Source: Chelativorans salis (GTDB taxonomy: Bacteria; Pseudomonadota; Alphaproteobacteria; Rhizobiales; Rhizobiaceae). Taken from it: a stretch of 64,000 nucleotides of DNA. The stretch covers positions 1 to 64,000 of the forward strand of contig NZ_JAOCZP010000011.1 of the NCBI RefSeq assembly GCF_025336525.1. Direction: 5' to 3'. Position numbers and translations under genes: made by a program. Positions 38,100 to 55,121 of this stretch are shown here, piece by piece. Numbering within the stretch: the first letter of the stretch is position 1; each line of letters opens with the position of its first letter. The notes under the pieces were generated by a model. The model saw only the letters and a list, made by a program, of their open reading frames with translations, had not been told where the DNA came from and searched no databases.

Positions 38100-38285
38100 T
38101 CATCGTCCGGGCATAAGGTGAACCTTGTGCGCGGCGTGGCCGAAGAGGCGATACGCAGGCGCTTCTTCGTTCTCGCTGTTCAGCTTCTCGCCGAAGATTT
38201 TGAAGTCTAAGTCCAGGGCCGCGACGTTGCCTGTCAGCTTGGTGTTGTTCTCATTGAAGCGGATGAAGTTGCTCGGGTCGTTCAT
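38100..38285 (-). pseudogene. Truncated DUF736-family protein
   Basis: 61 aa from ATG 38285, with GGAG seven bases upstream. The segment TKLTGNVAALDLDFKIFGEK followed by NEEAPAYRLFG matches the first half of DUF736, a ~100-aa protein common on alphaproteobacterial plasmids and integrative elements. The second half is missing and replaced by HAAHKVHLMPGR and a stop. The break lies at the edge of the TRAP cluster, so it may mark where that cluster was joined to the stress island. Confidence 0.6.
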
Positions 38286-39453
38286 TGGATCACTCCGTGT
38301 TTCGATCTTCCGACGGGAGCGATGCACGGCCCGGATCAAGAGCAGCAGGCACCCTTCAGGGCGAACGAAGTGGGGACGCCGGCAGGGCTAAAAATCGGAA
38401 GGTTCGCCGCTTGCCGGTGAAAGCCGATTTTTCGACCGGCCTGTGTTGCCTGCTGATCCAGGCTGCAGCGGGATGGGAATGGAGCCGGCCGGACGGCGAT
38501 CGCCCGATCGCCTATATCGGCGGCAGGCTTACGTACGGTATGACTGAGAGCCTTTGGCTCGACGTGTTCGCGTCGTATTCGTCCACCGCACGCAGAGGGG
38601 CTGGGGATGGCTTCAGCCGCGCCGCCTTCGGAATTGAAGCGCGAATGCGATGGTGAACAACGGCGCTCCTGTTTCATTGGCTTCTCGGGCAGCGTACGCA
38701 CCAGTCCCGCTCCCGCCGGCTAGCCCGCTTCTCTCACCGCCCTTTGTTTTGACGGGTTCGGGCGCCGACTTGGCGGCGTGAGTTTAAAGCCGTGCGCGGT
38801 CTGTGGCGCTGGAGAGCGGCGGCTTTGGGTTCGGCAATGTCTCCTGTGTCGTTTGCGGGAAGGGTTGAGGCCGGCGGGATCATCGGGCCACGGCTGTCAA
38901 ATTGAGCAGTCAAAGGCAGAGAGGCACACCATAGGGGCGGATACTTCAAGCTTCACACGTTCAGAAGATAAGTTCAGCGTGCAGGAGAGGAGTGCAGTGA
39001 GTAGCTGCGATCAGAAGTCACGTGCAGTGATTTCGTAGACACCCCAATCGTCAGGAATCTACCCGAATAAGTCGTTCCGCCGAAAAGCATCTTCCTGGAT
39101 CCGGGGGTACTTGAAATTACGAACAGCCCTCACCAAATCGATTGCCGCGGGATGCCACTGACGGGTCCCGAGGCAAGTAATGGCGAGTCCGGCCCATAGG
39201 GGCGGGCGCCGCATGTCGCTTCGCGACGAAAGCATGTGCGCCTAGCCATTGGTTGTTGTCCGGCACTTCTCTTTGCGAGACGCGCCGGTCGTTGTCGGGC
39301 TTTCCCTCCTCTTTGCCTCTGGCTCGGCAGTTGTTCTCCGCATCTCGAAACTTGCAGCTCGCGGCGCCACGCGGCGGACGCACGCCGGTGCGTGCGAGGC
39401 CGTTCGCGTGCTAGCGGCTCGGGCTAAGTTTGGAACGAAGGAGGATGACAACC
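38286..39453. other. Long stretch with only gene remnants, upstream of the Hsp20 cluster
   Basis: About 1.2 kb. It contains the outer-membrane-protein-like fragment at 38414-38656 and otherwise no supported gene. A CTTGAAA motif at 39110-39116 could be a heat-shock sigma -35, with a poor CCAAAT -10 17 bases on. The last 200 bases are a GC-rich, structure-prone leader before the first Hsp20 gene, including CCTCCT (about 39305) able to pair with its AGGAGG. Confidence 0.4.
38414..38656 (+). pseudogene. C-terminal fragment of an outer-membrane beta-barrel protein
   Basis: The reading frame ends with alternating beta strands (AYIGGRLTYGMTESLWLDVF, then FGIEARMRW) and a terminal aromatic residue, as in outer-membrane barrels. 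No signal peptide or complete N-terminus precedes it. It overlaps no other gene and looks like the tail of a deleted gene. Confidence 0.35.
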
Positions 39454-39894
39454 ATGCTGCTGGGACGAACATCAGGCTTCGACTGGGATCCGTTCACGGA
39501 AATGCAACGAATGCGGGAGGACATGAATCGGCTGTTTGCCGATTTCCCTAGCTCTCCTGCGACCAGAATCTATCCGCCGGTCAATCTCTGGCTCGGCGAG
39601 AACAGCATAGCGGTCACGGCCGAATTGCCGGGGCTGTCGGCGGAGGAAGTGGATCTCACGATTCGCGAGGACACGCTGACCATCCGCGGTGAGCGCAAAC
39701 CGATGGAAGAGGCGGAGCAGGCAAGCTGGCATCGGCGCGAGCGGCCCCTGGGCGCATTCTCTCGCACCGTTTCGCTGCCTTATCGTGTCGATCCGGACCA
39801 GGTAAAGGCTCGGTTCCAGAACGGCGTCCTGGAGATCGAAATGCAGCGACCGGAGGCAGATCAGCCGCGCAAGATTCAGATCAGTAATCAATGA
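39454..39894 (+). CDS. Small heat-shock protein, Hsp20/alpha-crystallin family (1 of 3)
   Basis: 146 aa. ATG 39454 is chosen because AAGGAGG (39438-39444) lies nine bases upstream; ATG 39445 abuts that site. Alpha-crystallin domain about residues 40-135, with the ELPGLSAEEVDLTI and FQNGVLEIEMQRPE motifs (the latter akin to GVL in Hsp20). Holds unfolding proteins during heat or oxidative stress, ATP-independently, in the cytoplasm. First of three Hsp20 genes in tandem. A long GC-rich leader precedes it. Confidence 0.93.
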   Translation: MLLGRTSGFDWDPFTEMQRMREDMNRLFADFPSSPATRIYPPVNLWLGENSIAVTAELPGLSAEEVDLTIREDTLTIRGERKPMEEAEQASWHRRERPLGAFSRTVSLPYRVDPDQVKARFQNGVLEIEMQRPEADQPRKIQISNQ

Positions 39895-39913
39895 ACAGCA
39901 AGGAGATGCAATC

Positions 39914-40318
39914 ATGGCACAGGAAGTGACGACCACGAGGAAGCGGGACGTCGCTCGCACCAACGGCGGCGAGCCGAGCACCGCGGCGCCGATCTATCTG
40001 CCTGACACAGACATCTATGAGACCGTGGATCACATCGTGCTTGTCGCCGATATGCCTGGTGTTGCGCCAGGCGATGTCGATGTCACGCTGGAACGCCGCG
40101 TCCTGACCATTCGCGGCAAGGTGCCGACGGAGGCTCACGATGGCTATAAACGTCTCTACGCTGAGTACGGCGAAGGCGACTTCGAGCGTGTGTTCACCCT
40201 CTCGGAGGAGGTCGACCGCGACCATATCGAAGCCAGCCACAAGAACGGCGTGCTCACCCTGAAGTTGCCGAAGGCCGAATCCGCCAAGACCCAAAGGATC
40301 GAGGTTAAGGCGGCGTAG
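39914..40318 (+). CDS. Small heat-shock protein, Hsp20 family (2 of 3)
   Basis: 134 aa. Alpha-crystallin domain about residues 30-125 (DTDIYETVDHIVLVADMPG, KNGVLTLKLPKAE). A short, Thr/Arg-rich N-terminus. Starts 19 bases after the first Hsp20 gene, with AAGGAG before its ATG. Different enough from its neighbours to form hetero-oligomers rather than being a fresh duplicate. Confidence 0.93.
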   Translation: MAQEVTTTRKRDVARTNGGEPSTAAPIYLPDTDIYETVDHIVLVADMPGVAPGDVDVTLERRVLTIRGKVPTEAHDGYKRLYAEYGEGDFERVFTLSEEVDRDHIEASHKNGVLTLKLPKAESAKTQRIEVKAA

Positions 40319-40350
40319 GCCTGCTCAGGAGGTGTGAAAGGAGGCCTAAC

Positions 40351-40857
40351 ATGCAGATCAAGGATCTCATTCCCTGGAGCCGCACGCGAAGCACTCTCTC
40401 GCAGGGGCAGGACGGAGGCGGCAATCCGCTCTCGGCTTTGCAGCGAGACATCAACCGTGTCTTCGACGATTTCTGGAATCGCTTCGAGCCCCCATCCGGC
40501 GCGACGAACGGATTCCTATCCGTGGGCACACCGCACACGGAGGTCTCGGAGACCGATAAGGAAGTCGAAGTCTCGTTCGAACTGCCCGGCATGACCGAAA
40601 AGGACATCGACGTCAGGCTGAGCGACGACGTTCTGACCATCCGCGGTGAGAAGAAGAACGAACGCGAGGAGAAGAAGAAGGGCTATTATCTGTCCGAGCG
40701 AAGCTACGGCTCCTTCTACCGCAACATTCCCCTGCCAGCCGGTGTCGACCCCAAAAAGGCGGAGGCACGGTTCAAGAACGGCGTCTTGACGGTGATCCTT
40801 CCCAAGACACCGGAGGCGCAGAAAAAGGTCCGGAAAATTGAGGTGAAGGCGGCATGA
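40351..40857 (+). CDS. Small heat-shock protein, Hsp20 family (3 of 3)
   Basis: 168 aa with a longer N-terminal arm (MQIKDLIPWSRTRSTLSQGQ, then ALQRDINRVFDDFWNRFE). The alpha-crystallin domain (SFELPGMTEKDIDVRLSDD, FKNGVLTVILPKT) resembles the class usually called HspC2/IbpA-like in alphaproteobacteria. Preceded by GAAAGGAGG. Last gene of the three-gene unit; a GC hairpin follows. Confidence 0.93.
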   Translation: MQIKDLIPWSRTRSTLSQGQDGGGNPLSALQRDINRVFDDFWNRFEPPSGATNGFLSVGTPHTEVSETDKEVEVSFELPGMTEKDIDVRLSDDVLTIRGEKKNEREEKKKGYYLSERSYGSFYRNIPLPAGVDPKKAEARFKNGVLTVILPKTPEAQKKVRKIEVKAA

Positions 40858-40869
40858 CGCAAGACAGGT

Positions 40870-40892
40870 CCGGCGGCCAGGACGGCCGCTGG
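40870..40892 (+). terminator. GC hairpin downstream of the Hsp20 operon
   Basis: CCGGCGGCC-AGGAC-GGCCGCTGG forms a 9-bp stem (one G-T pair) 13 bases after the third Hsp20 stop. The next T-run (CTATTTTTTT, about 40924) is some 30 bases further, so termination is plausible but not classic. Confidence 0.35.
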
Positions 40893-40969
40893 GCCCGATT
40901 ATGTATCGATTTATGCTGAGTTTCTATTTTTTTGCCGGAATGGCTTTTGAACCGTCGAAGTCGTCATTG

Positions 40970-42238
40970 TTATCTTTCAACTGTAGGCACGCCTTCGTTG
41001 CCTTCAACGCACAGGCGATTTTTCAGGAGAGGAAGGCTTAGCAACGTAAGCACTGCGAAGATGGCGCCAACGAGGAAGGTGGATTGAGATCCAAGCTGAT
41101 CCCAAAACGCCCCAGCGATCACGCTGGCGAGAAACATGGCTACGCCCGTAACGAGGTTGAATATCCCATAGGCTGTTCCTCGCAGTTCTGCCGGCGCGGT
41201 GTCCGCGACAAGGGTGGCAAACAGGCCTTGTGTGTAACCCATATGAAATCCCCACAGCGTGACCCCAATTGCGACGGCTATCAGTCCGCTCGCAAAGGCC
41301 AATGTCACCTCGGCCAGCACCAAAAGCGCCAAACCCAGGGCCAGCATCGTGATGCGGTTGACCCGGTCTGACATAATGCCGGCGGGATAGGCCGACAGCG
41401 AATAGGCGAAGCTCATGATGACCATCACCGCCGGGATTGCCATCACCGGAAGGCCGATGGCTTGTGCCTTCAAGACCAGAAAGGCTTCGCTGAAGCGGGC
41501 CGGCGTAAAGAGTGTCGCCACGGCCACCACACACCAGAACGCTCGGCCCACCTGCTTCAGATCGGCGGGGTGGAGGGGCGCGCGAAGCCTTCTCGTGTCC
41601 TGTGGCCGGTCAGGCTCGCGGACCAGAAACACAATGATAGCGACCGACATGAAAGCCGGGATGACGGCAATCCAGAATACTTGCTGGAAATTGTCGGCTG
41701 TCAGCCACATCAGGCCGATGGCGATGAGCGGGCCCAGAAATGCTCCGACAGTATCAAGGGACTGACGCAGCCCGAAGCTCGCACCGCGCAAATGCGGAGG
41801 TGCGATATCGGCAACAAGAGCGTCACGCGGCGCACCACGGATGCCCTTCCCCACCCGATCGATAAAGCGAGCGGCGACCAGCCATTCTATTGAGGTGGCG
41901 AGCGGGAAAATCGGTTTCGTGATGGCTGCCAAGCCGTATCCCAGGGCTGCGAGGAGTTTGCGTTTCCCGAGCCAGTCGCTTAGCGCGCCGGAAAACACCT
42001 TTGTAATCGAGGCAGTCGCTTCCGCGATGCCCTCGATCATACCCACAGCCAGAGCCGAGGTTCCAAGCACCGAAACCATGTAGACCGGCAGCAGGGCATG
42101 AATCATCTCGGACGATGTGTCCATGAATAGCGACACCAGGCCGAGCATCCACACGCCGGCGGGAACGGATCGGCGATTGTCCAGAGACGCAACGGCTGGA
42201 TTAGCCGCGGCGACTTCGTCTTCAACTGTTCTCGTCAT
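40970..42238 (-). CDS. Major facilitator superfamily transporter
   Basis: 422 aa from ATG 42238, with twelve predicted helices. The loop motif DWLGKRKLLAALG and the segments FMDTSSEMIHALLPVY and RVGKGIRGAPRDALVAD mark the MFS subgroup linked to metal or metalloid (chromate-type) genes. The start overlaps the ChrB-like gene end by 17 bases, so the two are co-translated. Probably a resistance efflux pump; substrate unknown. Confidence 0.85.
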   Translation of the reverse strand: MTRTVEDEVAAANPAVASLDNRRSVPAGVWMLGLVSLFMDTSSEMIHALLPVYMVSVLGTSALAVGMIEGIAEATASITKVFSGALSDWLGKRKLLAALGYGLAAITKPIFPLATSIEWLVAARFIDRVGKGIRGAPRDALVADIAPPHLRGASFGLRQSLDTVGAFLGPLIAIGLMWLTADNFQQVFWIAVIPAFMSVAIIVFLVREPDRPQDTRRLRAPLHPADLKQVGRAFWCVVAVATLFTPARFSEAFLVLKAQAIGLPVMAIPAVMVIMSFAYSLSAYPAGIMSDRVNRITMLALGLALLVLAEVTLAFASGLIAVAIGVTLWGFHMGYTQGLFATLVADTAPAELRGTAYGIFNLVTGVAMFLASVIAGAFWDQLGSQSTFLVGAIFAVLTLLSLPLLKNRLCVEGNEGVPTVER

Positions 42239-42770
42239 GCGCGTCAAAAACCTCGCGCGCGTAAACGTCGAGCAGTTCTTCGCAACCGCGCAGCCGTTCT
42301 TCTGCTTCGGCCCCTAAAGCTGCGCTGTAAAAGTCCAGCTTCCTGATCTTCTCAAACCAGCCCTGAAGCTTTTTCAGATCAACGTCGTTCTCTTCCAGCT
42401 CGGCGTAGGTGAAGTTGTTCGCGGCCCGCTCTTTGGCAATTTCCCCATGGAAGTCCGTGCATTTGTCGATGAATTCCCGGTAGGCCTCGTCCCGATCCTG
42501 TTTGAAGCGTGCAATCACCTTGTCTCTCTGCGCACGATCCAGGGCGGCCGTCTCCAGAAGTACGGATTCGCCGTCGATCTCAGCGATTTCATTCGCCAGT
42601 ATTTTGAGGCCGCGCGTGTGCTCGTCGGTTTGCGGGAGCACGCAGACCCCGCTTTGTAGATAGACCGCCCCCATCCCCTTCAGCCGCCGCCAGATCGCAA
42701 TGCGCTTCGAGGACGGTTCGGCAGGGACTTTGTAAATGAGAAGGAGCCAGGAAAGCGAATTCATATTCAT
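42222..42770 (-). CDS. ChrB-like chromate-resistance-associated protein
   Basis: 182 aa; ATG 42770 or 42764. The N-terminal WLLLIYKVPAEPSSKRIAIWRRLKGMGAVYLQSGVCVLP is the ChrB N-terminal domain; the remainder is helical and acidic. ChrB proteins act as chromate-sensing regulators or accessories. Here the usual ChrA transporter is replaced by an MFS protein. Two palindromes upstream (42777-42794 and 42800-42813) may be its own operators. Confidence 0.8.
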   Translation of the reverse strand: MNMNSLSWLLLIYKVPAEPSSKRIAIWRRLKGMGAVYLQSGVCVLPQTDEHTRGLKILANEIAEIDGESVLLETAALDRAQRDKVIARFKQDRDEAYREFIDKCTDFHGEIAKERAANNFTYAELEENDVDLKKLQGWFEKIRKLDFYSAALGAEAEERLRGCEELLDVYAREVFDAHDENS

Positions 42771-42776
42771 TTCATG

Positions 42777-42813
42777 ATGTAACAGCGGTTACATTTCAAG
42801 ACAACATTTTGTC
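42777..42813. promoter_or_regulatory. Two adjacent palindromes upstream of the ChrB-like gene
   Basis: ATGTAAC-AGCG-GTTACAT (42777-42794) has 7-bp arms; GACAA-CATT-TTGTC (42800-42813) has 5-bp arms. They lie right before the ChrB-like start on the minus strand and about 90 bases before the divergent PAP2 gene. Either could be an operator for ChrB or another regulator acting on both. Confidence 0.5.
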
Positions 42814-42903
42814 TCATTTCGCCTGTAGGCGGATTCCACATTTTTGGTGAGAGCGATCGCAACCAACTGAATTTCAACAGGCCGATTGACAAGGACGGAC
42901 CAA

Positions 42904-43887
42904 ATGCAAGCGTCAGGACACGCTCCCCCCCGAACACTCACAAAGTGGATATTGGCTGGTGCGGCGCTGTCGGCGCTGATGGGGGCTATAGTCCAGCTTC
43001 ACGCGCTGGAAGAGCTTGTGGACCGTCCAGTTGCTCTGTTCTTCGCAAGCCAACGTGACACGATGTTTGTGCAGGTTGCCTGGTTCTTAACGGACTTCGG
43101 CAAAGCTTACTGGTTCATCATTCCCGCTGCTGTGGCCTTCGTACTATCCCGGTTTGTATTGCGAAACCCGCTCTATGCCTCCCAGGCGCTGTTTGTTCTG
43201 CTTAGCGTGGCTGTGACCGGCATAGTTGTCGATATAATCAAAATCGTATTTGGCAGAGCCCGCCCAAATTTACTTCTAAACCACGATATTTATCAGTTTT
43301 TCTTTTTCCGGTTCGGAAGGGATTATAATTCATTTCCATCCGGTCATACCGCTTGCGCCATGGCGGCGGGCGTAGCTCTGGCCCTGATCTTCCCGAAATA
43401 TCGCAGTCTGGCACTTGCTGGTGGGATCACCTTGGCTTGCACGCGCTTTGTTACAACCGCGCATTATATCAGCGACGTAGTGGCGTCCTCAATGATCGCG
43501 GTTGTCGGCGTTCTGACCATCAGGGTTATTCTCGCCAGATACGGCTTTCCACTAAGCTGGGGCGGGGCAGCGGCAACCTCGCCTCGCCATGGGCTTGTTG
43601 CGAAAACGATCGGCGTTCCCGTCGATGCGCCCGATACACATACCGCTCCGCCACGATTGATCGCCCCGTCAGTGTTCGGCGTCGTCATCGCTGCCGTCGC
43701 TATGTCGACAAGCGGTCTGCTTCCCAACCTCGCTTTGATCGAATGGCAAGAACGCTCCTCGCCCAACTTTGAGCCCATGGTTGAGGGGTGGCTCTGGCTT
43801 TCGCTTTTTGTCAGTGTCGGCTTCGGGGCGCTCACGTGGATATTTCAGCGGCGGGTCTCCCTGCCGCAAAGCCGTTCCAGCAACTGA
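42904..43887 (+). CDS. PAP2-family membrane phosphatase
   Basis: 327 aa from ATG 42904. The three PAP2 motifs are KIVFGRARP, FPSGHT, and TRFVTTAHYISDV (with Arg instead of the usual Ser-Arg pattern). About six helices plus a C-terminal extension with two more. Such enzymes dephosphorylate lipid phosphates (phosphatidate or undecaprenyl pyrophosphate) at the inner membrane. Divergent from the ChrB/MFS pair; part of the stress and envelope island. Confidence 0.85.
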   Translation: MQASGHAPPRTLTKWILAGAALSALMGAIVQLHALEELVDRPVALFFASQRDTMFVQVAWFLTDFGKAYWFIIPAAVAFVLSRFVLRNPLYASQALFVLLSVAVTGIVVDIIKIVFGRARPNLLLNHDIYQFFFFRFGRDYNSFPSGHTACAMAAGVALALIFPKYRSLALAGGITLACTRFVTTAHYISDVVASSMIAVVGVLTIRVILARYGFPLSWGGAAATSPRHGLVAKTIGVPVDAPDTHTAPPRLIAPSVFGVVIAAVAMSTSGLLPNLALIEWQERSSPNFEPMVEGWLWLSLFVSVGFGALTWIFQRRVSLPQSRSSN

Positions 43888-43952
43888 AATCATTGTTAAT
43901 GAGCGGAAAGCCGCGAAAACTGGCGGTTATGCGATCCACCAGGGTTGTAATT

Positions 43953-44180
43953 TTAAGAAACAAAATCGTTTGCTAAACCGAGGACACGCTTTCTATAGTT
44001 TCTGAGTTGTCCCTTTGGACCGACATAGCGATAGAGGGTCACGCGTTCGATCCCGAGCTCCTTGCAAAGTTCAGCGACAGATGTGTCGCGCTAAGCCATC
44101 ACGGCCTGTGCGAGGCGCACTTGTGCCGTGGTGAGAGCAAATACGGTCCGTAAGCTCTGCCTTTGGTTTTTCTTACGTAT
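43953..44180 (-). pseudogene. Remnant of a serine recombinase (Tn3-type resolvase) C-terminus
   Basis: Minus-strand translation gives TVFALTTAQVRLAQAVMA, an in-frame TAG, then RDTSVAELCKELGIERVTLYRYV and KRVLGL. This is the DNA-binding helix-turn-helix tail of Tn3-family resolvases/invertases. The catalytic N-terminal domain is missing and a stop codon interrupts the remainder. A scar of a lost transposon between the PAP2 and PepSY genes. Confidence 0.7.
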
Positions 44181-44275
44181 CGGTAAGCCCGCAGAAAGGA
44201 TGCGGTGAACTTCGCGGCCCAACCTGTTCGGGAGAGAGGCGACGGTCGCCTCTCCCTCAGCCAAGGAGCAAAATC

Positions 44276-44644
44276 ATGAAAAACGCAGTCCTCGCCGGTG
44301 CCCTCGCTGCCATGGTCGCGGGCAGTGCCCTCCCCGCCTATGCAGAAACAGGTGCTTCAGACAAAACCGAAATGCAGGCGGCGCTTGCCGCCAAGGTGTC
44401 GATGTCGGAGGCCGTGCAGGCAGCAGAAGACAAGTCGGGCGGCAAGGTTATGGAAGCCGTGTTCTCGGACGAGAACGGCAAGCCAGGCTATGAGGTCTCC
44501 ACGGTGCAGCCGGATGGAACCGAGCAGAACTTCTTTGTCGATGCATCGACCGGGGAGGCGGTCAAGGCGACCGCCGCAGCCGAGAATGAAAACGATGGCA
44601 GCGGCACCGTCGATGATTCTCAGGAAGGCGAGTACGACGAGTGA
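44276..44644 (+). CDS. Periplasmic PepSY-domain protein
   Basis: 122 aa. Signal peptide to AYA-ETG, then one PepSY domain (about residues 35-100; SMSEAVQAAEDKSGGKVMEAVF, YEVSTVQPDGTEQNFFVDASTG). Acidic, flexible C-terminus (GTVDDSQEGEYDE). PepSY proteins are periplasmic inhibitors or sensors linked to proteases and two-component systems. The HK/RR pair at 46-48 kb could be a partner (inference). AAGGAGC precedes the ATG. Confidence 0.85.
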   Translation: MKNAVLAGALAAMVAGSALPAYAETGASDKTEMQAALAAKVSMSEAVQAAEDKSGGKVMEAVFSDENGKPGYEVSTVQPDGTEQNFFVDASTGEAVKATAAAENENDGSGTVDDSQEGEYDE

Positions 44645-44741: not shown

Positions 44742-45095
44742 TGTTGATTTCCGCTAAGAACTGACCCGCCATTTGGGTCTGTGGGTGCGGTCAAGTTCCT
44801 GCCTTTCTCCTTCGTGGTTTGCGTTCATGTGCCCAGCTATTCTTGAAGCGGAAGCTGTCGTTTCCAGTTTCGAGGATGTGGCAATGGTGTGTGAGCCGGT
44901 CGAGAAGCGCGGTGGTCATCTTAGCGTCCCCGAAGACGCTGGCCTATTCGCTGACGCTCAGGCCGGTAGTGATGATGACGGTGGTGCGTTCGTAGAGCTT
45001 GCTGAACAGGTGGAAGAGCAACGCACCACCAGAGGTGCTGAACGGCAGATATCCCAGCTCGTTGAGGATATCGATATCGGAATGGACAAGGCGCT
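44742..45095 (-). mobile_element. Remnant of an IS21-family element (istB C-terminus, internal stop)
   Basis: Minus-strand translation from ~45095 gives DILNELGYLPFSTSGGALLF, then FSKLYERTTVIITTGLSVSE, a TAG stop, and [20 protein letters not shown]. This is the ATPase helper IstB, with the usual Trp codon changed to a stop. The end ATTTCCGCTAAGAACTGACCC near 44742-44768 resembles an IS21 terminal sequence. The transposase gene istA and most of istB are gone. Confidence 0.75.
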
Positions 45096-45104
45096 TTCGA
45101 GCCC

Positions 45105-45313: not shown

Positions 45314-45736
45314 CTAGAGAACCCCCGACACGAATGCGTCTAGGCGGCTGCCTTTGCGATAAAGCATTCGTACCAGCATTTCTGCGGCGATGCCCGTCAG
45401 CACCCCACCGACGACGACGGCCGCGACTACCGTCGCGTGATCGGACGGGAAGGAGGGGTCGGCGCAATGATGAGGTGGGGTACCTCCGCGTCGTATGGCC
45501 TCACACGATCTACGAAAAGCAGGATAAGCTGGTTCGGCAAGTCCTAAGACAAACGACAGGCTGGCCGTGACGGCAACATGGCGCACATGCAAACGGTCCT
45601 TCCGATTCCACCATTGCAGCGCCACGATCAGGACGATGGCCGGGACACCGAGTTGCGTCACGGCGATCGTGAGGCTATCGAGCAGGGGATATGTGCCAGC
45701 CGGTCCGTTGATGGCTGCAGTGATCATTCTGTCCAA
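45314..45736 (-). pseudogene. Decayed PAP2-family phosphatase
   Basis: The frame starts MDRMITAAINGPAGTYPLLD and ends in PSFPSDHATVV...SRLDAFVSGVL. The first catalytic motif (FVDRVRPYDA) lies in another frame at about 45480-45540, so two compensating shifts are present. The third motif (usually R-x5-H near YVG-HY-D) is missing. Normal relatives are ~190-200 aa; this one is 140 aa. Most likely inactive. Confidence 0.6.
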
Positions 45737-45750: not shown

Positions 45751-46269
45751 ATGTTCGCGAACCGACACGTCGCGGTGGACCATACCGAGCAGCGGATCCA
45801 TCGCATCTTTCAGATCAGCGTCATCCTCAAGGGCTTTCATGCCGTGATCGAATGCGCATCCGGGATCGCGCTCTATATCGTTAGCGGGGAGACGATAAAG
45901 CGCTGGGTGCAGTTCCTGACGCAGGAGGAACTGCTCGAGGATCCTCGCGACTTCATCGCGACGCATCTGCTCGATGCTGCCCAGCATCTCTCGGTCGGAA
46001 CCCAGTCCTTCTATGCGTTCTATCTGCTAAGCCACGGGCTGGTGAAGGCCGTGCTTGTCGCCGGCCTGCTGCGCGAACGGCTCTGGGCCTACCCGGCATC
46101 GCTCGTCGCGCTCGCCGGGTTCGTCGCCTACCAGCTATATCGCTATTCCTACACCCATGGGTTCGGCCTCATAGTGCTGACGCTCTTCGACATCGTCGTT
46201 ATCGTCCTCGTCTGGCACGAATGGCGCGTGCTCGAGCGTCATCTGAAGAGGCCTCGGGAGAGCTCCTGA
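45751..46269 (+). CDS. DUF2127-family membrane protein
   Basis: 172 aa with four helices. The N-terminal HRIFQISVILKGFHAVIECA, the central THLLDAAQHLSVGTQSFYAFYLLSHG and the C-terminal WHEWRVLERHL are characteristic of DUF2127. Inner membrane; function unknown. Starts 14 bases from the divergent decayed PAP2 gene. Often seen with PAP2, FtsH and small Hsps in alphaproteobacterial accessory regions (from memory, not checked). Confidence 0.8.
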   Translation: MFANRHVAVDHTEQRIHRIFQISVILKGFHAVIECASGIALYIVSGETIKRWVQFLTQEELLEDPRDFIATHLLDAAQHLSVGTQSFYAFYLLSHGLVKAVLVAGLLRERLWAYPASLVALAGFVAYQLYRYSYTHGFGLIVLTLFDIVVIVLVWHEWRVLERHLKRPRESS

Positions 46270-46274: not shown

Positions 46275-47651
46275 TTACGCCGCGCAGACGCGCGGATCGG
46301 GACGAAACCGGATTACGACACCAAGCCCGGGCTTCATGTCGTTGAGTTCGATCGCCGCGTCATGCAGGTCTGCCACCGCCTTTACGAGGCTGAGCCCGAG
46401 CCCGCTGCCAGGCGAGGTGCGGCTCTTTTCCAGCCGGTAGAGACGACGGAACACCTTCTCCCGCTCGGCCTCGGGAATGCCCGGACCGTCGTCCTCGAAA
46501 CGCGCCACAAGGCCTTGCGGGTCATTCTGGAGTTTAACGGTTAGCGTTGTACCCGCAGGGCAGTGGCGGATCGCGTTCTCGATGAGGTTGGCAAACATCT
46601 GCGTGAGCAGCTCGCGGTCGCCCGAAAGCGGCGGGTACGCTCCGGCACGCCGGTCGAAAAACAGCGACTGACCAGCATCGTCCGCGACGTCGCGATAGAC
46701 CTCGATGAGGAATTCCAGGATCGCGCCCAGGTCGACGGGACCGAACCGGGTCTTGCGGGAGCCCGCCTCGATCTGGGAGATGCGCAGAAGCGCCTCGAAG
46801 GTCTCGTTGATGCGGTCGGCCTCCACGGCGGCTTCCACAAGCGCCTCACCGACTGAGAGCCCGTGAGCCTCCCGGTCGAGCGCCTCTTCTATCGTCAGGC
46901 GTAGACGGTTGAGCGGTGTCTTCAGGTCGTGCGCGATATCTGCGCTGACCTGGCGCATGCCCTCCACAGTATGCTCGAGGCGAGCCAGCGCGTCGTTTAT
47001 GTCGCGGGCGAGCGCATCGATGTCGTCGCCGTTTCCGAGCGACGGGATGCGAGCGGACAGTCGTCCACGGGAAACGGCATGCATGGTGTCGCCGACCGCG
47101 TTGAAGCGGCGACGGACCCTTGCGGCGAGCGCCGCGCCGCCGGACACAGCCAGAACGGCAACCAGCACCGTGGCCCAGGCGAAGCTGGAAGCGAGGATTT
47201 CCTGGATGCTGTCGTTCTCTTGCTGACTCGTGCCCACGACAACGCGGTTGCCATCAACCATCCCGGCATAGACACGGTAGGCGAGATCCGGTTCACGCCC
47301 AATGGCCCGCCCCTTGATGTCGCTCCATCCGTCGGGCACGTCAAAATCGCGAACATTGCCACCGAGGAAGCGGCGATCCGCCGACGTCACCTCAAAGATG
47401 CGGTCCATTCCGCGCGTCGCCCGCACGTTCATTTCCACCGCCTCCAGCATGTCTTGCAGATCGCTGTCGCCATAGGCGTCCGCGATAACGGAATAGGTCT
47501 CCCGGATCGTCTTATCCTGATATCTACGCAGTTCCCATTCCACTAGCTTGTGCACGGCAATGCCGGTGAGCGCGAAGGCGACCACCACCATCACCGCGAA
47601 TGCGACGGCTAGCCGGAAGGGGGTACTGCGGACGAGGCTATCGCGGTGCAT
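46275..47651 (-). CDS. Sensor histidine kinase (OmpR-type partner)
   Basis: 458 aa from ATG 47651, which overlaps the regulator stop by 14 bases. Membrane helices at about 13-33 and 155-178 flank a periplasmic sensor. Then HAMP (RRRFNAVGDTMHAVSRGRL), phospho-His in ADIAHDLKTPLNRLR, and the N, G1 and G2 boxes (ANLIENAIRHC, DDGPGIPE, GSGLGLSLV). Signal unknown; the PepSY protein nearby may modulate it. Confidence 0.92.
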   Translation of the reverse strand: MHRDSLVRSTPFRLAVAFAVMVVVAFALTGIAVHKLVEWELRRYQDKTIRETYSVIADAYGDSDLQDMLEAVEMNVRATRGMDRIFEVTSADRRFLGGNVRDFDVPDGWSDIKGRAIGREPDLAYRVYAGMVDGNRVVVGTSQQENDSIQEILASSFAWATVLVAVLAVSGGAALAARVRRRFNAVGDTMHAVSRGRLSARIPSLGNGDDIDALARDINDALARLEHTVEGMRQVSADIAHDLKTPLNRLRLTIEEALDREAHGLSVGEALVEAAVEADRINETFEALLRISQIEAGSRKTRFGPVDLGAILEFLIEVYRDVADDAGQSLFFDRRAGAYPPLSGDRELLTQMFANLIENAIRHCPAGTTLTVKLQNDPQGLVARFEDDGPGIPEAEREKVFRRLYRLEKSRTSPGSGLGLSLVKAVADLHDAAIELNDMKPGLGVVIRFRPDPRVCAA

Positions 47652-48315
47652 GCAGGGAATACCCGACATTGCGCACGGTATGGATGAGAGGAGTCGCGAA
47701 GGGCTTGTCGACCTTTGCCCGCAGGCGGCTGACATGGGTCTCGACGACACTCGTCCTGGGATCGAAGTGGAATTCCCAGACCCGCTCGAGCAGCATCGTG
47801 CGTGTTACGATACGACCCTCGTTGCGCATGAGAACTTCGAGCAGGGTGAACTCCCTGGGCTGCAGCTCTATGTCAGTTTCGCCGCGCCTGACCCGCCGCC
47901 GGACCAGATCCATCTTCAGGTCGGCCACTTGCAAGATCGTCTGTACGGAGACCGGCGGTGGCCGGCGCGCAAGCGCGTTCACGCGAGCCTGAAGTTCAGA
48001 AAAGGCGAAGGGCTTGACCAAATAGTCGTCGCCTCCGGCCTCAAGTCCCTCGACCCGATCGTCTATCCCGCCCACCGAGGTGAGGAAGAGGGCCGGAATC
48101 TTGCGCCCGGCCGCGCGAAGCGAGCGCACGAGCGACAGGCCGTCCAGCCCCGGCAGCATGCGGTCGATCACCAGAACGTCGTATGATTCGCGCATTGCCT
48201 GGAACAGGCCGTCCTCGCCGTCCGCCACGACGTCGCAGACGTGCCCGACCTCGGCGAAGCCGCGAGCTACCCTTTCGGCGGTCTTGGCATCATCTTCGAT
48301 GTAGAGGATTCGCAT
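47638..48315 (-). CDS. OmpR-family response regulator
   Basis: 225 aa. Receiver domain with the phospho-Asp in YDVLVIDRMLPG (about residue 51), then the switch Lys in YLVKPFAFSEL. The C-terminal winged helix ends with VRNVGYSLHAPR. Upstream gene of the two-component operon. Possible targets are the neighbouring membrane-protein genes (inference). Confidence 0.93.
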   Translation of the reverse strand: MRILYIEDDAKTAERVARGFAEVGHVCDVVADGEDGLFQAMRESYDVLVIDRMLPGLDGLSLVRSLRAAGRKIPALFLTSVGGIDDRVEGLEAGGDDYLVKPFAFSELQARVNALARRPPPVSVQTILQVADLKMDLVRRRVRRGETDIELQPREFTLLEVLMRNEGRIVTRTMLLERVWEFHFDPRTSVVETHVSRLRAKVDKPFATPLIHTVRNVGYSLHAPR

Positions 48316-48393
48316 CGTCGTCTGCCTTTACTATTGCATGGCAGGGAGGCGGCAGGAAGGCCGTCCTCCCCACCTGCCGGGTTCTTGTGCAAC

Positions 48394-49218
48394 CTAGCCG
48401 TGAGCACCTTCCGCCCAGTGGCGCTTCGCCGCCGTTTCCTCTTCTCGGGACGGTCTGTCCGCTCGGCTGGCGGTCAGGTAGCCGATCAGAGCCACGATGA
48501 TCACGAAGAAGACGGCGTTTATGCCGAAGTGGCTGAGACCGAGCCCGCCGTCGGCCGGAGGCTGCGAGAGCAGATCGCCGATCGAGGCGCCGAGCGGGCG
48601 CGTCAGGATGTAGGCGATCCAGAAGGCGAGCACCGCGTTGAGGCCCATGGCGTAGTAGGCGACCGTCGTCAGCGCGATCAGGCCGCCGAAGATGAGCGTG
48701 CCCTGCATGTAGCCGAGGCCGACACCCTCGGTCGCGAGGTCGCCGCCCGCCGTTCCGAGCGCGAAGGTGAACAGGATCGCTGCCCAGTAGAAAAGCTCGC
48801 GCCGTGTCGTGAAGATGGTGTGGATCGAGAGCGTGCGTTCGGCGGCGTACCAAGCCATGAAGGTCACCGCCAGCAGGACGCTGAACACCGCCGTCGAGGT
48901 CCAGAGCGGGACGCCGAAGGCATCGGTCAGATTGTCCGTGATTAGCGTGCCGACGATGCTGATGAGAATGACAGTCAGCCAGTAGAGCCACGGGACGTAT
49001 TGGCGGCGCATAAGCTGGTATGCCAGGACGGCGACGAGCAACCCGCTCATAACCCAGGACGTGTTGGTGAGGCCGAAGCCGAGGTTGACGTTGAGGTAGT
49101 CGGCGGCCGTCTCGCCGACGGTCGTCGCCATGATTTTGATGATCCAGAAATAGAGCGTGATCTCCGGCACCTTGTTCAGCATGGGTGCTGCCGTCGGCTC
49201 CTGCGTGGTGATGTCCAT
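48394..49218 (-). CDS. COG4705-family multi-pass membrane protein
   Basis: 274 aa from ATG 49218, with AGGAGGG upstream. About eight to nine helices, beginning LNKVPEITLYFWIIKIMATTVGETAADYL, a signature of this family of uncharacterised membrane-anchored proteins. It repeats the motif near residue 150-190 (TLGTAGGDLATEGVG-like), hinting at an internal duplication. Likely an ion-related transporter; function unknown. Located just upstream of the two-component system, 78 bases apart. Confidence 0.75.
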   Translation of the reverse strand: MDITTQEPTAAPMLNKVPEITLYFWIIKIMATTVGETAADYLNVNLGFGLTNTSWVMSGLLVAVLAYQLMRRQYVPWLYWLTVILISIVGTLITDNLTDAFGVPLWTSTAVFSVLLAVTFMAWYAAERTLSIHTIFTTRRELFYWAAILFTFALGTAGGDLATEGVGLGYMQGTLIFGGLIALTTVAYYAMGLNAVLAFWIAYILTRPLGASIGDLLSQPPADGGLGLSHFGINAVFFVIIVALIGYLTASRADRPSREEETAAKRHWAEGAHG

Positions 49219-49384
49219 CGGTCCCTCCTGAGGAAGCGGTTGTCTGCCGGACGGGCTTCCTGCCCGCGGCTTCCTGCCTCCTAGGAGGCGGAACTGTCGG
49301 CATCTTTGCCGAAACTTTACGGATCCGTATGAAATGCGGGCCTCGGCGTAGTCATCGCGTGTAGGTCGTTGCATTGCATAGGTT

Positions 49385-49564
49385 TCACCCACAACTTCGA
49401 CTAATTCTAATCTTCGCTATCTTCGATACGCCATTCTCGTCGGTCGCCAGCTTTGAAAGATCGACGACACCGGGAACGGCAAGCCGCGTCCCTTTTCGGG
49501 AGATCGTCGCGATCAGCCTTTCAGATTCCACATGCGGCAGGCGGCTGATACGGTCGATTTTCAC
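49385..49564 (-). CDS. Small 59-aa protein, translationally coupled to the Nramp gene
   Basis: GTG 49562-49564 overlaps the Nramp stop codon (GTGA). The frame encodes [20 protein letters not shown] and ends [12 protein letters not shown], 59 aa, basic, no membrane segment. I do not recognise a family. The tight overlap with the preceding gene and even codon use favour a real gene; the Nramp mRNA would carry it. Role unknown. Confidence 0.5.
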
Positions 49565-50838
49565 GTCGTCACCATAAGGACGATATTCAGCGCGACGACG
49601 ATGACGACGGCGGTCCAGGCAAGCGCGTTGGTCATCCGTCGGTTCGCCAGATCGCCCATGAGGGTCGGGCGGCTCGTGAAGATCACGAGCGGTATGAGCG
49701 CAAAAGCGATGCCGAAGCTCAGGACAACCTGGCTCAAGACAAGCACCCGCGTGACGTCGAAGCCGGCCAGGATGACCATGAAGGAGGGAGCCATGGTGAC
49801 CGCTCGGCGGACGAGGAGTGGAATCCGGAACCCCACGAAGCCTTGCATGACCTCCTGTCCGGCGAGCGTGCCCACCACCGTCGAGGCCAGCCCCGCAATT
49901 ATGAGAGACAGGCCGAAGATGCGGGCGGCGAAGGGGCCGGCCAAGGGCTCCAGCGTCCGGTAGGCGGTCTCGATCCCCGCCAAGTCGGAATGAACGGGGT
50001 GGAAGACCGCCGCGGCCATGGCGAGCATGGCGAAATTGACGAAGCTTGCGATCGCCATGGCGATACCCACATCCCAGCGACTCCACCACCAGAGCTTTTT
50101 CCGCGAGGTGGTGGCGAAGGTCTGCGCGTCCGAGCGGCTGAGCGCGGAGTGGAGGTAGATGACATGCGGCATCACCGTGGCGCCGAGAATGCCGGCGGCG
50201 AGATAGAGGCTGTTCTCGCCGGAGAGCGTGGGGACGAGCGCGCCTTCGAGAAGGGCCTTGGGGGCAGGGTGGCTGAAGGCAAGCTCGAGAACGTAGATGA
50301 GGGCGACAGCGGCGAGCATCGAGCCGATGACCAGTTCCAGCGGCTTCAAGCCTCGCCGCTCGATCGAGAGAATCGCCCAGCTTGCGATCCCCGTAAGCAC
50401 GGCGCCCTCAAAAAGCGTCAGGTCGAACAGCAGCTTGAAGCCGAGCGCGGCACCCACAAACTCCGCGAGATCCGTGGCGACGGCGAGGATCTCCGCTTGT
50501 ATCCAATAGGCCCATCTGGCCCAGGGCGGCAGGTGCGCGCGCAGCACCTCCGCCAGGCTCGCCCCCGTGGCCAGGCCGAGCTTGGACGACAGGAGCTGGA
50601 CGAGAACGGCGATCAGATTGGCCCAGACGACCACCCACAGAAGCATGTGGCCGTAGTGCGCACCGGCTTCAATGTTCGTGGCGTAGTTGCCGGGGTCGAT
50701 GTAGCCGATGGCCGAGACGAAGGCCGCGCCAAAGAAGAGCGATCGCTTCGCCAGGCGCGGTCTCCGCCGCCCCGCCACCAGCTCCTTCGCCGCCACTGGG
50801 GAGGTGTCGGCGGGAGAGAGGCGGTCTTCCATGCTCAT
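49561..50838 (-). CDS. mntH: Nramp-family divalent metal cation transporter (MntH-like)
   Basis: 425 aa, eleven helices. The metal-binding motifs [12 protein letters not shown] (helix 1) and [11 protein letters not shown] (helix 6) are intact. Imports Mn2+ (or Fe2+) with protons. Its ATG overlaps the FtsH stop (ATGA), so the two are coupled: a membrane protease and a manganese importer in one operon, which suits oxidative-stress defence. The symbol is given by family; a MUR-type operator was not seen. Confidence 0.88.
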
Positions 50839-52691
50839 GCCACGGCCACCTTCGGACCGGGGCGCTGGGCCGCTTCGCCCGGCCGCGACCTGCCGGTGAT
50901 CGGCGGAAAGTCGGCGGCGGTGATCGTTTCATCCTTGAGGAGCAGTTCGGCGCCCTCGTGGAGGTCGGCACGGCGCTCGGTGAGGATGGCTTCAGCCTGC
51001 TTGGACGCCTCCTCGACCAGCCTCATCACCGCCAGGTCGATTTCGCGCGCCGTGGCCTCCGCATAGTCCTTCGGCTGGCCCAGTCCATAGGTCTGGCCGA
51101 GAAGAGCCGGGCGGTCTTGCTCATAAACCACCTCGCCGGTTTCGTGGACCATGCCGAAGCGGGTGACCATGTGCCGCGCGATATCGGTCACCTTGGCGAG
51201 GTCGTCCGCCGCTCCGGTGGAGATCTCGCCGAAGACGAGGCGCTCGGCCACCCGGCCGCCCATGAGCACCGCCATGCGGTCCTTGAGATCGCGGGTCGTC
51301 TGCAGGAAGCGCTCTTCCGTCGGCCGCTGGATCGTGTAGCCGAGCGCGCCGACGCCGCGCGGGATGATCGATACCTTGTGAACCGGGTCCATTCCGGGCA
51401 GCGATGCGGCCACGAGCGCATGGCCCATCTCGTGATGCGCCACCACCCGGCGTTCATGCGGATTGAGCAGGCGGCTCTTCTTCTCCAGTCCGGCGACGAT
51501 GCGCTCGATGGCGTTGGTGAAGTCGGCCATCGTCACCTCCAATGCGCCGCGCCGAGTGGCGAGAAGTGCTGCCTCGTTCACCAGATTGGCGAGGTCAGCG
51601 CCGGTGAAGCCGGTCGTGAGGGCTGCGACCTGATCGAGCTCGATGTCGGCGGCGAGCCGGAGGATCTTGCGGATATGGACCTGGAGGATGGCCAGCCTCC
51701 CCGGCTTGTCCGGCCGGTCCACCAGTACCTGGCGGTCGAAGCGGCCGGCGCGCAGGAGGGCCTGGTCGAGCACCTCCGGGCGGTTGGTGGCGCCCAGGAG
51801 TACGATGCCCTCGGAGGGGTCGAAGCCGTCGAGTTCGGTCAGGAGCTGATTGAGGGTCTGCTCCTTTTCATCGAAGCCACCGGGCATGCCGCCCGGTGCG
51901 CGGGCGCGGCCCAGCGCGTCAAGCTCGTCAATGAAGATGATGCAGGGCTTGGCCTTGCGTGCCTGCTCGAAGAGGTCGCGCACGCGCGCCGCACCCACGC
52001 CGACGAACATCTCCACGAACTCCGAGCCGGAGATGGAGAAGAAGGGCACGCCCGCCTCGCCGGCCACCGCCCTGGCAAGCAGTGTCTTGCCTGTGCCGGG
52101 CGGGCCGACGAGCAGGATGCCCTTGGGCACGCGGGCGCCGAGCCGGCCGTAGCTTGCGGGATCGCGCAGGAAGGCGACGATCTCCTTGAGCTCGTCCTTG
52201 GCCTCCTCGACGCCGGCCACATCGGAAAAGGCGACCTTCGTGTCGCGCTCCACATAGACCTTGGCCTTCGACTTGCCGACCGTCATCAGCCCGCCGACCC
52301 CTTGCCTCGCAACCCGGCGGATGAAGAAGAGCCAGAGCGCGAAGAAGAAGCCGATGGGGATCACCCAGGACAGCAGGTCGCTGAGGAAGGTGTTCTTGGC
52401 CGTGCCGTCGAATTTCACGCCGTATTTGGTGAGTTCATCGGCGATGGCTGGATCAACCCGGTTGGTGGTGAAGTAGGTGCGGCCATCCTTCAGCGGTTTC
52501 TTGAACTGTCCCACGAGCTGCTGCTCGCCTACCTGGACCTCGGCGATCTTCCCGTCCTTCAAAGACTGCTCGAACTCGGAATAGGGAATCGGCTCGACGG
52601 TGCGCCAGGTCGCGTACCACCCCTGAAACAGGAACAGCAGGACAACTGCCGCGATGACGTACCAGAGATTGATCTGATGCTTCTTGTCCAT
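50835..52691 (-). CDS. ftsH: FtsH-type AAA+ membrane metalloprotease
   Basis: 618 aa from ATG 52691 ([13 protein letters not shown]); the longer frame to 53399 is leader. Two membrane helices (about 10-24 and 105-125), Walker A GPPGTGKT (196-203), Walker [15 protein letters not shown] region [20 protein letters not shown], and zinc motif HEMGH in [11 protein letters not shown] (HEAGH is usual). It degrades misfolded membrane proteins at the cost of ATP. The presence in an accessory stress island, with mntH, suggests it is a second copy beside the housekeeping FtsH (inference). Confidence 0.92.
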
Positions 52692-53040
52692 CTTGTGTCT
52701 CTTCGTTGCGCATGCGCTCAATGCCTTGTAGCCAGCAAGTCCGATGCCACGGCACAACATCCTGTTTTGAAAGGGCTTTCCGGAAGCTCTCCATTGCGCA
52801 ACCGGTGGATATCCACGCGCTGGGGCCGAAAAGCGGTGGATTTGAACCAAAGCCGGGACGCGCGCCTGCATCCTGAAGGTGCATGCCTTTGATGTGGCGG
52901 CGTTTTCGCCGTTGGCGCGCCGATTGCTCCTTTCGCTTCGCATCCCGTTCCCGTGACGGCCGCCGGGGTTCACCGCGACAATCCCGCGATCCGGAGGAAC
53001 GGGCGTGAAGACATTGGTCGCAATTGAGGAGAAACATGCG
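52692..53040. other. Intergenic region upstream of ftsH
   Basis: About 350 bases; the ftsH promoter should lie here. The minus-strand frame of ftsH stays open through it, but gives a composition unlike protein and has no better start. Nothing else seen. Confidence 0.4.
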
Positions 53041-53310
53041 ATGCGACGAGAAATCCGGAAGATGACGGTGGCGCCTACACCAACGGCGACCGTTCTGGCT
53101 GCCCTGATGGTCACCACGGCAATAACGGCGCCGGCAGCAGCCGCGCAGTCTGGGACAAAAGCGGCGGAGATCAGCGCACTTCCCGCCGAGCCGGGGAGCA
53201 AGGTGCCCTTTCGTCGGCTGCTGCCAAGGCGCTGCGGCTCGGCCAAGCGGAAAGCTACGATAAAGGAAGAAGCTTCTTCCGAGCGGCGTAGGTTGTACTC
53301 TGCAATGTGA
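53041..53310 (+). CDS. Small possible exported protein
   Basis: 89 aa from ATG 53041, with GAGGAG nine bases upstream. The N-terminus has a signal-like hydrophobic stretch (ATVLAALMVTTAITAPAAAA, before QSG) and the remainder is basic. No family recognised. Divergent from ftsH. The protein-like signal peptide and ribosome site are the only support, so it may be spurious. Confidence 0.35.
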   Translation: MRREIRKMTVAPTPTATVLAALMVTTAITAPAAAAQSGTKAAEISALPAEPGSKVPFRRLLPRRCGSAKRKATIKEEASSERRRLYSAM

Positions 53311-53404
53311 TTACTTCCTGGCCAAATCGCACTGCCGGACAGGGGCCGAAGAACGAACCCGCTGCGCGGGAGGGCGCCTGCGGTTGAGGTAGGGGGCACA
53401 GGCC

Positions 53405-55121
53405 TTGACCGACACGTCGAACGGGAGTGGCGAGAAGCGAGTGTTTGGCGAAACCGGGAATGGAAGCGAGGACTCCGGTTCCAAGGCGTTTGCGAGAACC
53501 AGACGAGCGCTCGGCGAACTCGGCCAGGCGCTTGTCAAAGTTGCCCGATCCCTGAATGATGATCTGGCAGCAGTCTGCGTTCCCGCCGCGAGAACATGTT
53601 ACGAAGCCATTTGGAAGGGGCTACGGAGGCTGCGCAGTGCTGACCTGTCGAGCATCCGAATCGGCCTGGCTGCACTGGGGCGGCGTTCAGCGGTTACCTT
53701 GTCCAGTGTGGGCCGCACGACTCGCTCGGCATTCGAGCAGTTGCGCCAAACCCGGTACCAAGGCAAGCCGCTCGTGATGCTGGGTGCAGCGGCCGGTGCG
53801 GCGAGCTTGGTTTTTCTGTTCATGTTCTTTGCTTGGACACTAAGAGATGCCTTGGGAGGAAATCGCCGACGGATCGCTGAAGCCCGTGGTCGTGCTCGAA
53901 ACGGCAGACGGCAAACCGTTGGTTCGTCAGGGACCCATACAGGGCCCCTATGCAGCCCGCCAGGATTTCCCGGATGAATTGATCGATGCGGTTTTGACCA
54001 TAGAGGATCGTCGCTTCTATGAGCATTCCGGCATCGATTTGAGGGGAATATTTCGCGCGCTGTACAAGAATGTCGAGGCCGGCGAGGTCGTCCAGGGCGG
54101 CAGCACGATCACGCAGCAACTGATCAAGATCATGTACCTGGAGCGGGACCGTACCTGGAAACGTAAAATCCAGGAGGCAGTCATCGCATTCTGGCTGGAG
54201 CATAAGCTCGGCAAGGATGAGATTCTCACGCGGTATCTGAACAACATCTATCTGGGCGCGGGTGCGACCGGGATGCCTGCTGCGGCGCGCATCTATTTCG
54301 ACAAGGAGGTCCAGGAGCTCGAGCTCGGTGAAGCCGCAATGCTCGCCGGCATCATCCGTGCGCCGTCTCAGCTCAATCCGTTCAACCATCCGCAAGGCGC
54401 GCGCCAGCAGGCAAAGCTTGTGCTCGATATGATGGCCAGGGCTGGTAAGATCACGGTGGCCCAGGCCGAGGCGGCGAATGACGCATTTGCCGAATTCAGT
54501 CCGACGAAGCCTACAGCAAGGTCGGGCAGCTGGTTTTCGGATTGGGTCATGCAGGAAGCACGCGAGCTTGCCGGTCCCTATCGGGGCACAATTACCGTCA
54601 GGACCACGATGATCCCGCGCCTGCAGATTCTCGCGGAGAAGGTAGTCGCCGAAGCGCTCGACAAACATGGAGCGAACGCAGGTGCATCGCAAGCGGCCCT
54701 GGTGGCAATGACGCCGGAAGGGGCGATCGTCGCCATGGTTGGTGGCCGTGATTACGGGAAGAGCTCCTTCAACCGCGCAGCGTCGGCGATGCGCCAACCC
54801 GGCTCCGCATTCAAGCTGTTTGTCTACTACGCCGCGCTCAAAGCTGGGCTTACCCCGTTCGACAGTGTCGATGACGCTCCGATCGAGATCAACGGCTGGA
54901 GGCCGGAAAACTACGGTGGCGGCTATCGAGGCCGGGTCAGCATCGCTGAGGCGTTCGCGCGCTCGCTGAATGCGGCGACGGTGGCCCTGGCCATGGAAGT
55001 GGGGATCGACAATGTCGTTGCGGCGGCGCGAGAGCTCGGCATCGATGCCAAGCTGAACGAGATACCCAGCCTGGCTCTCGGCGCGTCGGAAGTAAATCTG
55101 CTCGATCTCAGGGCAACCTAG
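53405..55121 (+). pseudogene. Class A penicillin-binding protein (PBP1A-like), frameshifted and truncated
   Basis: The first frame (from TTG 53405) gives a cytoplasmic arm and a membrane helix (AASLVFLFMFFAWTLRD). Near 53845 the sense continues one frame over: MPWEEIADGSLKPVVVLE. Then come the transglycosylase domain (IEDRRFYEHSGIDLRG, GGSTITQQLIK) and the start of the transpeptidase domain with the Ser-x-x-Lys motif RQPGSAFKLF. It stops at ...SEVNLLDLRAT, about 130 residues before the KTG motif would come. Full relatives are ~700 aa. Presumed inactive transpeptidase. Confidence 0.8.

Follow-up and report, generated by a model that had tools for sequence, protein, structure and literature searches.

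A probable plasmid-type mosaic block with Hsp20, FtsH–MntH and COG4705 genes in Chelativorans salis

A block of about 17 kb in Chelativorans salis, from 38134 to approximately 55108, is in our judgement probably a mosaic of plasmid-type cargo that joins three independent modules: a triad of Hsp20 genes, a two-component unit with a COG4705 membrane protein and its neighbours, and an overlapping pair of FtsH and Nramp genes. The window analysed here takes in positions 1 to 64,000 of contig C2 (NZ_JAOCZP010000011.1; 151,674 bases), and the genome comprises 5.66 Mb in 19 contigs at 99% completeness. A first-pass annotation of this DNA had read the genes as an independent version of the transmissible locus of stress tolerance (tLST) acting as one system. 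That reading was not supported, since the triad, the FtsH and the COG4705 unit belong to different lineages or modules. The joint occurrence of the families that it implied was seen at none of 15 triad loci, 38 accessory-FtsH loci and 13 COG4705 loci, and a partial set was found on one Mesorhizobium plasmid. The block is most likely new as a combination and not as a kind of system, and its modules probably work side by side without forming a single machine.

Edges and origin of the block

The block lies between a TRAP-transporter operon on the left and an aldehyde dehydrogenase gene on the right. In three sister genomes, DNA similarity to the TRAP operon breaks off at 38130, 38132 and 38133, and the insert begins with a DUF736-like gene (38134..38339, minus strand) whose 3' end is cut off. 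The first-pass annotation had placed a DUF736 fragment at this edge. The DNA bears this out, with 79% identity to a gene annotated as DUF736 on a plasmid of Chelativorans, although the Pfam match is weak and under the cut-off (E 0.003). At the right edge, Pfam and DNA matches identified a PBP1A-type penicillin-binding protein in two frames (53405..55108, plus strand; open frames 53405–55121), which also lacks its 3' end. It is cut within the transpeptidase domain, where the Pfam match reaches only 132 of 299, and five rhizobial plasmid PBP1A genes (77–79% DNA identity) align as far as 55105–55108. Both edge genes have near plasmid relatives, but the collection searched consisted of plasmids only.

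Remains of mobile elements lie among the modules. Between FtsH and PBP1A, a stretch of 63 bp (53342..53404, plus strand) that was absent from the first-pass annotation shows 98% identity to an accessory plasmid of Sinorhizobium meliloti. On that plasmid the matching stretch immediately precedes genes for a tyrosine recombinase and an IS91 transposase, so that the 63 bp most likely represent one end of an IS91-family element. A relic of the IS21 gene istB (44772..45096, minus strand) shows 80–84% DNA identity to rhizobial istB genes and carries PF01695 on both of its pieces (E 3e-9 and 1e-12). This relic upholds part of the earlier claim of transposon scars. The supposed resolvase, in the piece after the stop that was the only one scanned, is a generic helix-turn-helix remnant (best Pfam E 0.0014, all matches under the cut-offs).

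With its edges, the IS91-family end and the IS21 relic, the block looks like a foreign, acquired insert assembled with the help of mobile DNA, which agrees with the first-pass annotation. The MntH, FtsH and Hsp20 families are common, and the genes could in principle be chance neighbours or ordinary core chromosomal genes. We regard this as highly improbable, as the left edge is common to three relatives, a cut gene stands at each end, remains of two mobile elements lie inside, and the core-type FtsH of the genome is found elsewhere, on contig C17. The GC fraction also varies along the block, from 0.558 in the PAP2 gene to 0.595 in the Hsp20 triad and 0.659 in the Nramp–FtsH pair.

Searches for the block as a whole gave no second copy. 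In a megablast search of 72,556 plasmid records, none covered 80% of the block at one place, and the best covered 7%. Since megablast is blind to diverged DNA, protein searches were added. Among the matches listed in a DNA search of the 15 other genomes of the genus, which were scattered, there was no copy of the whole block. RepC was found on contigs C1 and C15 and not on C2; it was the one replication family searched for.

The Hsp20 triad and its relation to tLST islands

The three Hsp20 genes lie in tandem on the plus strand: hsp20A (39445..39894; PF00011, E 6e-24), hsp20B (39914..40318; E 8e-21) and hsp20C (40351..40857; E 3e-25). In a tree of 11 triads including that of the window, A, B and C each formed one clade (support 100/99, 100/99 and 97/93), so that Pfam and tree agree with the first-pass annotation on three different Hsp20 genes. 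For the neighbourhoods we used a table of 88 loci of at least 7 kb (up to L160), from which the window's own locus was left out. Matches to hsp20A occurred in 15 of these, four of which (L032, L033, L045 and L113) are near-copies of one island, and in all 15 hsp20A was accompanied by B and C in the same A–B–C order. The nearest relative of the window triad is the triad of a sister genome (locus L023), at 72–76% identity. By its sequence relationships the triad belongs to the lineage of alphaproteobacterial tLST-like islands.

An accessory FtsH was present in the same stretch in 8 of the 15 other triad loci. None of the 15 contained COG4705, MFS, ChrB_N, DUF2127, PAP2, PepSY or Nramp genes of the kind found in the window. 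A regulator of the window type (66% identity), paired with a kinase at 38%, lay about 6–9 kb from the triad only in L154, on an Ensifer plasmid, where COG4705 was not found. These counts speak against one coherent stress-tolerance island whose genes are retained for joint action against heat, oxidants and metals, a reading that we consider unlikely overall and to which we return below with the plasmid evidence.

The plasmid tLST of E. coli FAM21805 (NZ_KY416992) likewise combines Hsp20 genes with an FtsH of the accessory clade (62% identity to that of the window) on acquired DNA. The Hsp20 proteins of the window, three in number, are only 28–41% identical to its two, whose placement with clades A and C is weakly supported (52/16 and 85/65). 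At E 1e-8 the window gave no match to ClpK, Cls, YfdX, HdeD, Trx or KefB, the queries other than ClpK being limited to the window. This agrees with the absence of HdeD from the window that the first-pass annotation had noted. The absence of ClpK, also noted there, extends to the whole genome. An Hsp100 search of the genome returned seven matches, one of them trivial and six in three long frames, which are ClpB (C17), ClpV (C9) and ClpA (C13), each over its model cut-off, and a ClpG/ClpK-type disaggregase was found neither in the window nor in the genome. The window presents a case in which an Hsp20 triad occurs in a genome that lacks ClpK.

The island of Agrobacterium pusense plasmid pAtCFBP5496 (L045) shares the ordered triad with the window (43, 52 and 56% identity for A, B and C). 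Its gene order is PsiE, three Hsp20, MarR, FtsH, a ClpK-like AAA protein, HdeD, NDUFS4, rhomboid, ClpP, TrxC and a Kef antiporter. The AAA protein is closest to ClpK but falls under the model cut-off (1588 against 1900 bits). In that island MarR, FtsH and the ClpK-like gene run divergently from the triad, whereas the window has no such arrangement, its FtsH lying 10 kb off in another orientation. The pAtCFBP5496 FtsH belongs to a different sub-clade from that of the window, and the other genes of the island have no window match. L032 and L033, from the sister genomes G004 and G008, are near-complete tLST-like islands with 85–99% protein identity to pAtCFBP5496 and with HdeD unmatched. This similarity points to recent transfer between families.

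These likenesses raise the alternative that the block descends from an alphaproteobacterial tLST by decay, with ClpK, HdeD and other genes lost and foreign ones inserted afterwards. The triad order shared with L045, L032 and L033, and the accessory FtsH 10 kb away, count in favour of such a history. However, those triads come with an FtsH of another sub-clade than that of the window, and the window FtsH points toward the triad, while in L023, L032, L033 and L045 the FtsH points away from it. Queries with ClpK, HdeD, NDUFS4, rhomboid, ClpP and Trx found no remnant in the window at E 1e-8, and 7 of the 15 other triads were without FtsH in the stretch examined, some stretches being short. As the triad and the FtsH differ in their nearest relatives, the block is not simply a decayed tLST, and we regard this history as unlikely.

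The FtsH–Nramp pair and the COG4705 unit

The accessory FtsH protease (50835..52679, minus strand; TIGR01241, 753 bits against a cut-off of 600) lies upstream of an MntH-type Nramp transporter (49561..50838, minus strand; NF001923, 514 bits against 430; DPGN and MPH motifs present), and the two genes overlap by the four bases ATGA. Both proteins retain motifs that we take to be catalytic or metal-binding. In the FtsH tree the window protein falls in the accessory clade, split from sister-genome core FtsH (100/99), so that the tree bears out the accessory-type FtsH of the first-pass annotation, and the overlap is consistent with the coupling to Nramp stated there. The core-type FtsH of the genome on C17 shares 88–93% identity with the core proteins of the sister genomes and about 50% with accessory FtsH. 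Within the accessory clade, the window FtsH (best match 68%) belongs to a supported set of four (97/87) without the L023 FtsH, which groups with the E. coli and A. pusense tLST types in another set (95/96). The window FtsH thus lies outside the tLST-type set. It is 65% identical to the L023 FtsH, compared with 72–76% for the triads of the same two loci. Because the triad is nearest to L023 and the FtsH sits in a different supported set, the two most likely arrived separately.

Neither Nramp nor COG4705 was found at any of the 38 other accessory-FtsH loci in the table, a count in which L034 and L044 represent the same place; this also speaks against a coherent island. The Nramp protein is about 60% identical to enterobacterial MntH and at most 50% identical to any protein of the other genomes among 249 of the order, and no other of 385 class genomes reached E 1e-112. 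A scan of genome contigs with Nramp gave ten loci, eight from enterobacteria or their symbionts, one from Salinicola and one from Martelella alba, and none of the nine long enough for the locus table had neighbours of the block type. Judged from these searches, the FtsH–MntH pair is private to this genome among the genomes and loci covered. If real, the coupling would connect manganese import with the quality control of membrane proteins. L044, on a Chelativorans plasmid, carries an accessory FtsH (11989–13836) and a few other genes between two copies of one TniQ/TniB/Mu-type transposase gene set (3385–6752 and 13963–17330), an arrangement like that of a composite transposon.

The remaining module centres on a COG4705/DUF347 membrane protein resembling MmfC (48394..49218, minus strand; four DUF347 repeats, E 2e-61). 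Next to it on the same strand are an OmpR-type response regulator (47638..48315; Response_reg and Trans_reg_C) and a histidine kinase (46275..47657; HAMP, HisKA and HATPase_c, with the H-box present). A match to COG4705 at E 1e-60 was found in 15 of 249 genomes of the order, including this one, and 13 of the 14 others were examined at about 20 kb (L130–L142; G057 was left out). A regulator of the window type (65–72%) lay within 2.2 kb of COG4705 in 8 of these 13 Hyphomicrobiales loci; 4 of the 13 had a pair resembling mmfR and mmfS in the stretch, and one had weak regulator and kinase pieces only. None of the 13 contained the Hsp20 triad, FtsH or Nramp, and neither hsp20A nor FtsH occurred, by the rule of the locus table, in any of 22 COG4705 loci. 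From this recurrence COG4705, the OmpR-type regulator and the kinase are recognised as a Hyphomicrobiales unit.

The module resembles the mmf cassette of Tn6048, known from plasmids pHB44 and pBS64. By its published description the cassette contains PepSY, undecaprenyl-pyrophosphate phosphatase and two DUF347 proteins, and further a secreted protein, a regulator and a kinase (PMC4914505). Tn6048 is assigned to the Tn5053 family (PMC6210171), and Zn and Pb are reported to induce the mmf genes in Cupriavidus metallidurans (PMC2864759, PMC12029693). The window COG4705 protein is 57–59% identical to MmfC1 of pHB44, and in its neighbourhood lie a two-component system, a PepSY gene and a gene of the PAP2 type. 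The window regulator, however, has just 32% identity to MmfR and the kinase 30% to MmfS, and the regulator is closer to Hyphomicrobiales regulators (65–75%) than to MmfR. Similarity to MmfA covers 34 amino acids of the PepSY protein (38%) and that to MmfB only 18 amino acids of the PAP2 remnant described below (67%), and MmfD and EamA had no match in the window. An mmf-like COG4705 unit is now linked to a Hyphomicrobiales host in which testing is feasible.

Several other genes accompany this unit. An MFS transporter of the ChrB_N-linked type (40970..42247, minus strand; PF07690, E 6e-54) and a ChrB N-terminal-domain protein, a putative regulator (42222..42770, minus strand; PF20229, E 2e-41), form an overlapping pair that the first-pass annotation had left unnamed. 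The MFS is 72% identical to plasmid MFS genes adjoining ChrB genes in Rhizobium lusitanum and Pararhizobium. A PAP2 phosphatase with motif-like residues (42886..43887, plus strand; PF01569, E 4e-21), a PepSY-domain protein (44276..44644, plus strand; PF03413, E 1e-11) and a DUF2127 membrane protein (45751..46269, plus strand; PF09900, E 9e-30) follow. Pfam, with an NCBIfam check of the families, supports the DUF2127, PepSY, two-component and COG4705 assignments made earlier. Of the PAP2 phosphatases annotated in the plural, the first is sound, but the second (45314..45736, minus strand) is a remnant with the PSFPSDH region only (Pfam E 0.14).

Evidence for and against a joint system

Some of these neighbours recur with COG4705 on plasmids. 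On plasmids of Bradyrhizobium betae and Haematobacter the ChrB_N–MFS pair lies near COG4705; on one of R. lusitanum the distance is about 7 kb, across the record start. On an A. tumefaciens plasmid the MFS is near COG4705 with ChrB 11.5 kb from the MFS, and on an Ideonella plasmid the MFS stands beside mmf genes. DUF2127 is found near COG4705-type genes on plasmids of Haematobacter, Thioclava, Mesorhizobium and Burkholderia contaminans, and alone in an Ensifer. This co-location of ChrB_N–MFS, DUF2127, PAP2 and COG4705 is in favour of a coherent island, but it gives no frequency because most of the plasmids were picked for matching two of the genes. Among genomes of the order, DUF2127 at E 1e-22 is present in 7 of 249, including this one. 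Three of the others (G084, G151 and G119) possess COG4705 as well, and there the two genes are separated by 2.1 Mb or belong to separate contigs, which is evidence against a coherent island. Within 18–20 kb of DUF2127, Hsp20, FtsH and COG4705 were absent in all six other genomes, of which one had ChrB_N–MFS and one an MmfB-like phosphatase nearby.

The best evidence for a coherent island, though thin, is plasmid pB1-1-8 of Mesorhizobium sp. B1-1-8 (NZ_CP083957, about 9.5–24.8 kb), which carries Hsp20, FtsH, PAP2, DUF2127 and COG4705 within about 15 kb. Owing to this plasmid the gene combination of the window is not quite unique. Outside this genome, genes of the Hsp20 and COG4705 module types were seen together only there, in a different arrangement. 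It differs in having two Hsp20 genes only (one C-like, 45%), an FtsH broken over three frames and no Nramp match, and its full content in this region (L161 9525–13579, and L147) adds NDUFS4, SPW, DegQ and an acyltransferase.

Two exact promoter patterns gave no indication of common control, though such strict patterns are weak tests. A pattern like that of the general-stress sigma factor EcfG had no match in the window against 1.9 expected, and one like that of the heat-shock sigma factor had three against 2.0 expected, the sole match in the block lying inside the PBP1A relic. An Rfam scan for RNA thermometers over 37500–56000 gave one chance match (E 0.58), and anti-phage models matched none of five proteins.

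The following points weigh against a mosaic of independent modules. The clustering on the Mesorhizobium plasmid hints that such cargo is selected together. Many triad loci were chosen for matching hsp20A, and they represent only part of the hsp20A matches, namely those from 5 of the 6 other class genomes and from 6 of the 80 plasmid records. Co-location was assessed over 7 to 40 kb, where some stretches stop at a contig end, and one genome per species was surveyed. Two long branches are flagged in the FtsH tree and some of its forks are weak. An empty insertion site was not found, the right-flank genes lying outside the three sister-genome stretches that hold the TRAP side; a search with the right flank gave partial matches only, in 6 of 16 genomes of the genus including this one. 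It is conceivable, if doubtful, that the ordered A–B–C set is a dedicated hetero-oligomeric chaperone unit of Alphaproteobacteria, which travels either with ClpK or without it and has here been co-selected with a translationally coupled FtsH–MntH operon and the mmf-like metal-sensing module into a joint island for tolerance of heat, oxidants and metals, with the Mesorhizobium plasmid as a parallel assembly.

We nevertheless favour a mosaic of three modules, which the mobile-element remains among them probably brought in. In such a mosaic the Hsp20 triad would supply extra holdase capacity, as cytoplasmic holding chaperones that keep proteins unfolded by heat or oxidants soluble. Holdase activity is stated for sHsp20-1 of the tLST (PMC8290217). 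As the three long Hsp100 proteins of the genome are ClpB, ClpA and ClpV, ClpB would be the general disaggregase, and it would refold the proteins held by the triad. The COG4705 module, judged from its families, may be an mmf-like envelope or metal-response unit, in which the two-component system and COG4705, perhaps with PepSY, PAP2 and DUF2127, would answer an envelope or metal signal, and ChrB_N–MFS might act alongside as an efflux pair. Manganese protects other bacteria against oxidants. In the FtsH–MntH operon, FtsH would remove damaged membrane proteins and MntH would import manganese. Exchangeable modules may be what stress loci beyond the well-studied Gammaproteobacteria are built from. 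The literature searched contained no description of the present combination, which is weak evidence because subscription papers were largely outside its coverage.

Two further features of the window were observed. The stretch 38711–38844 shows a 78% match to the very ends of two contigs of the sister genome G005, as repeats or element ends do. Outside the block, 17606–18670 lies in a low-GC patch (0.53–0.55) and encodes a protein that combines a hemopexin repeat with a PA-IIL-like lectin domain.

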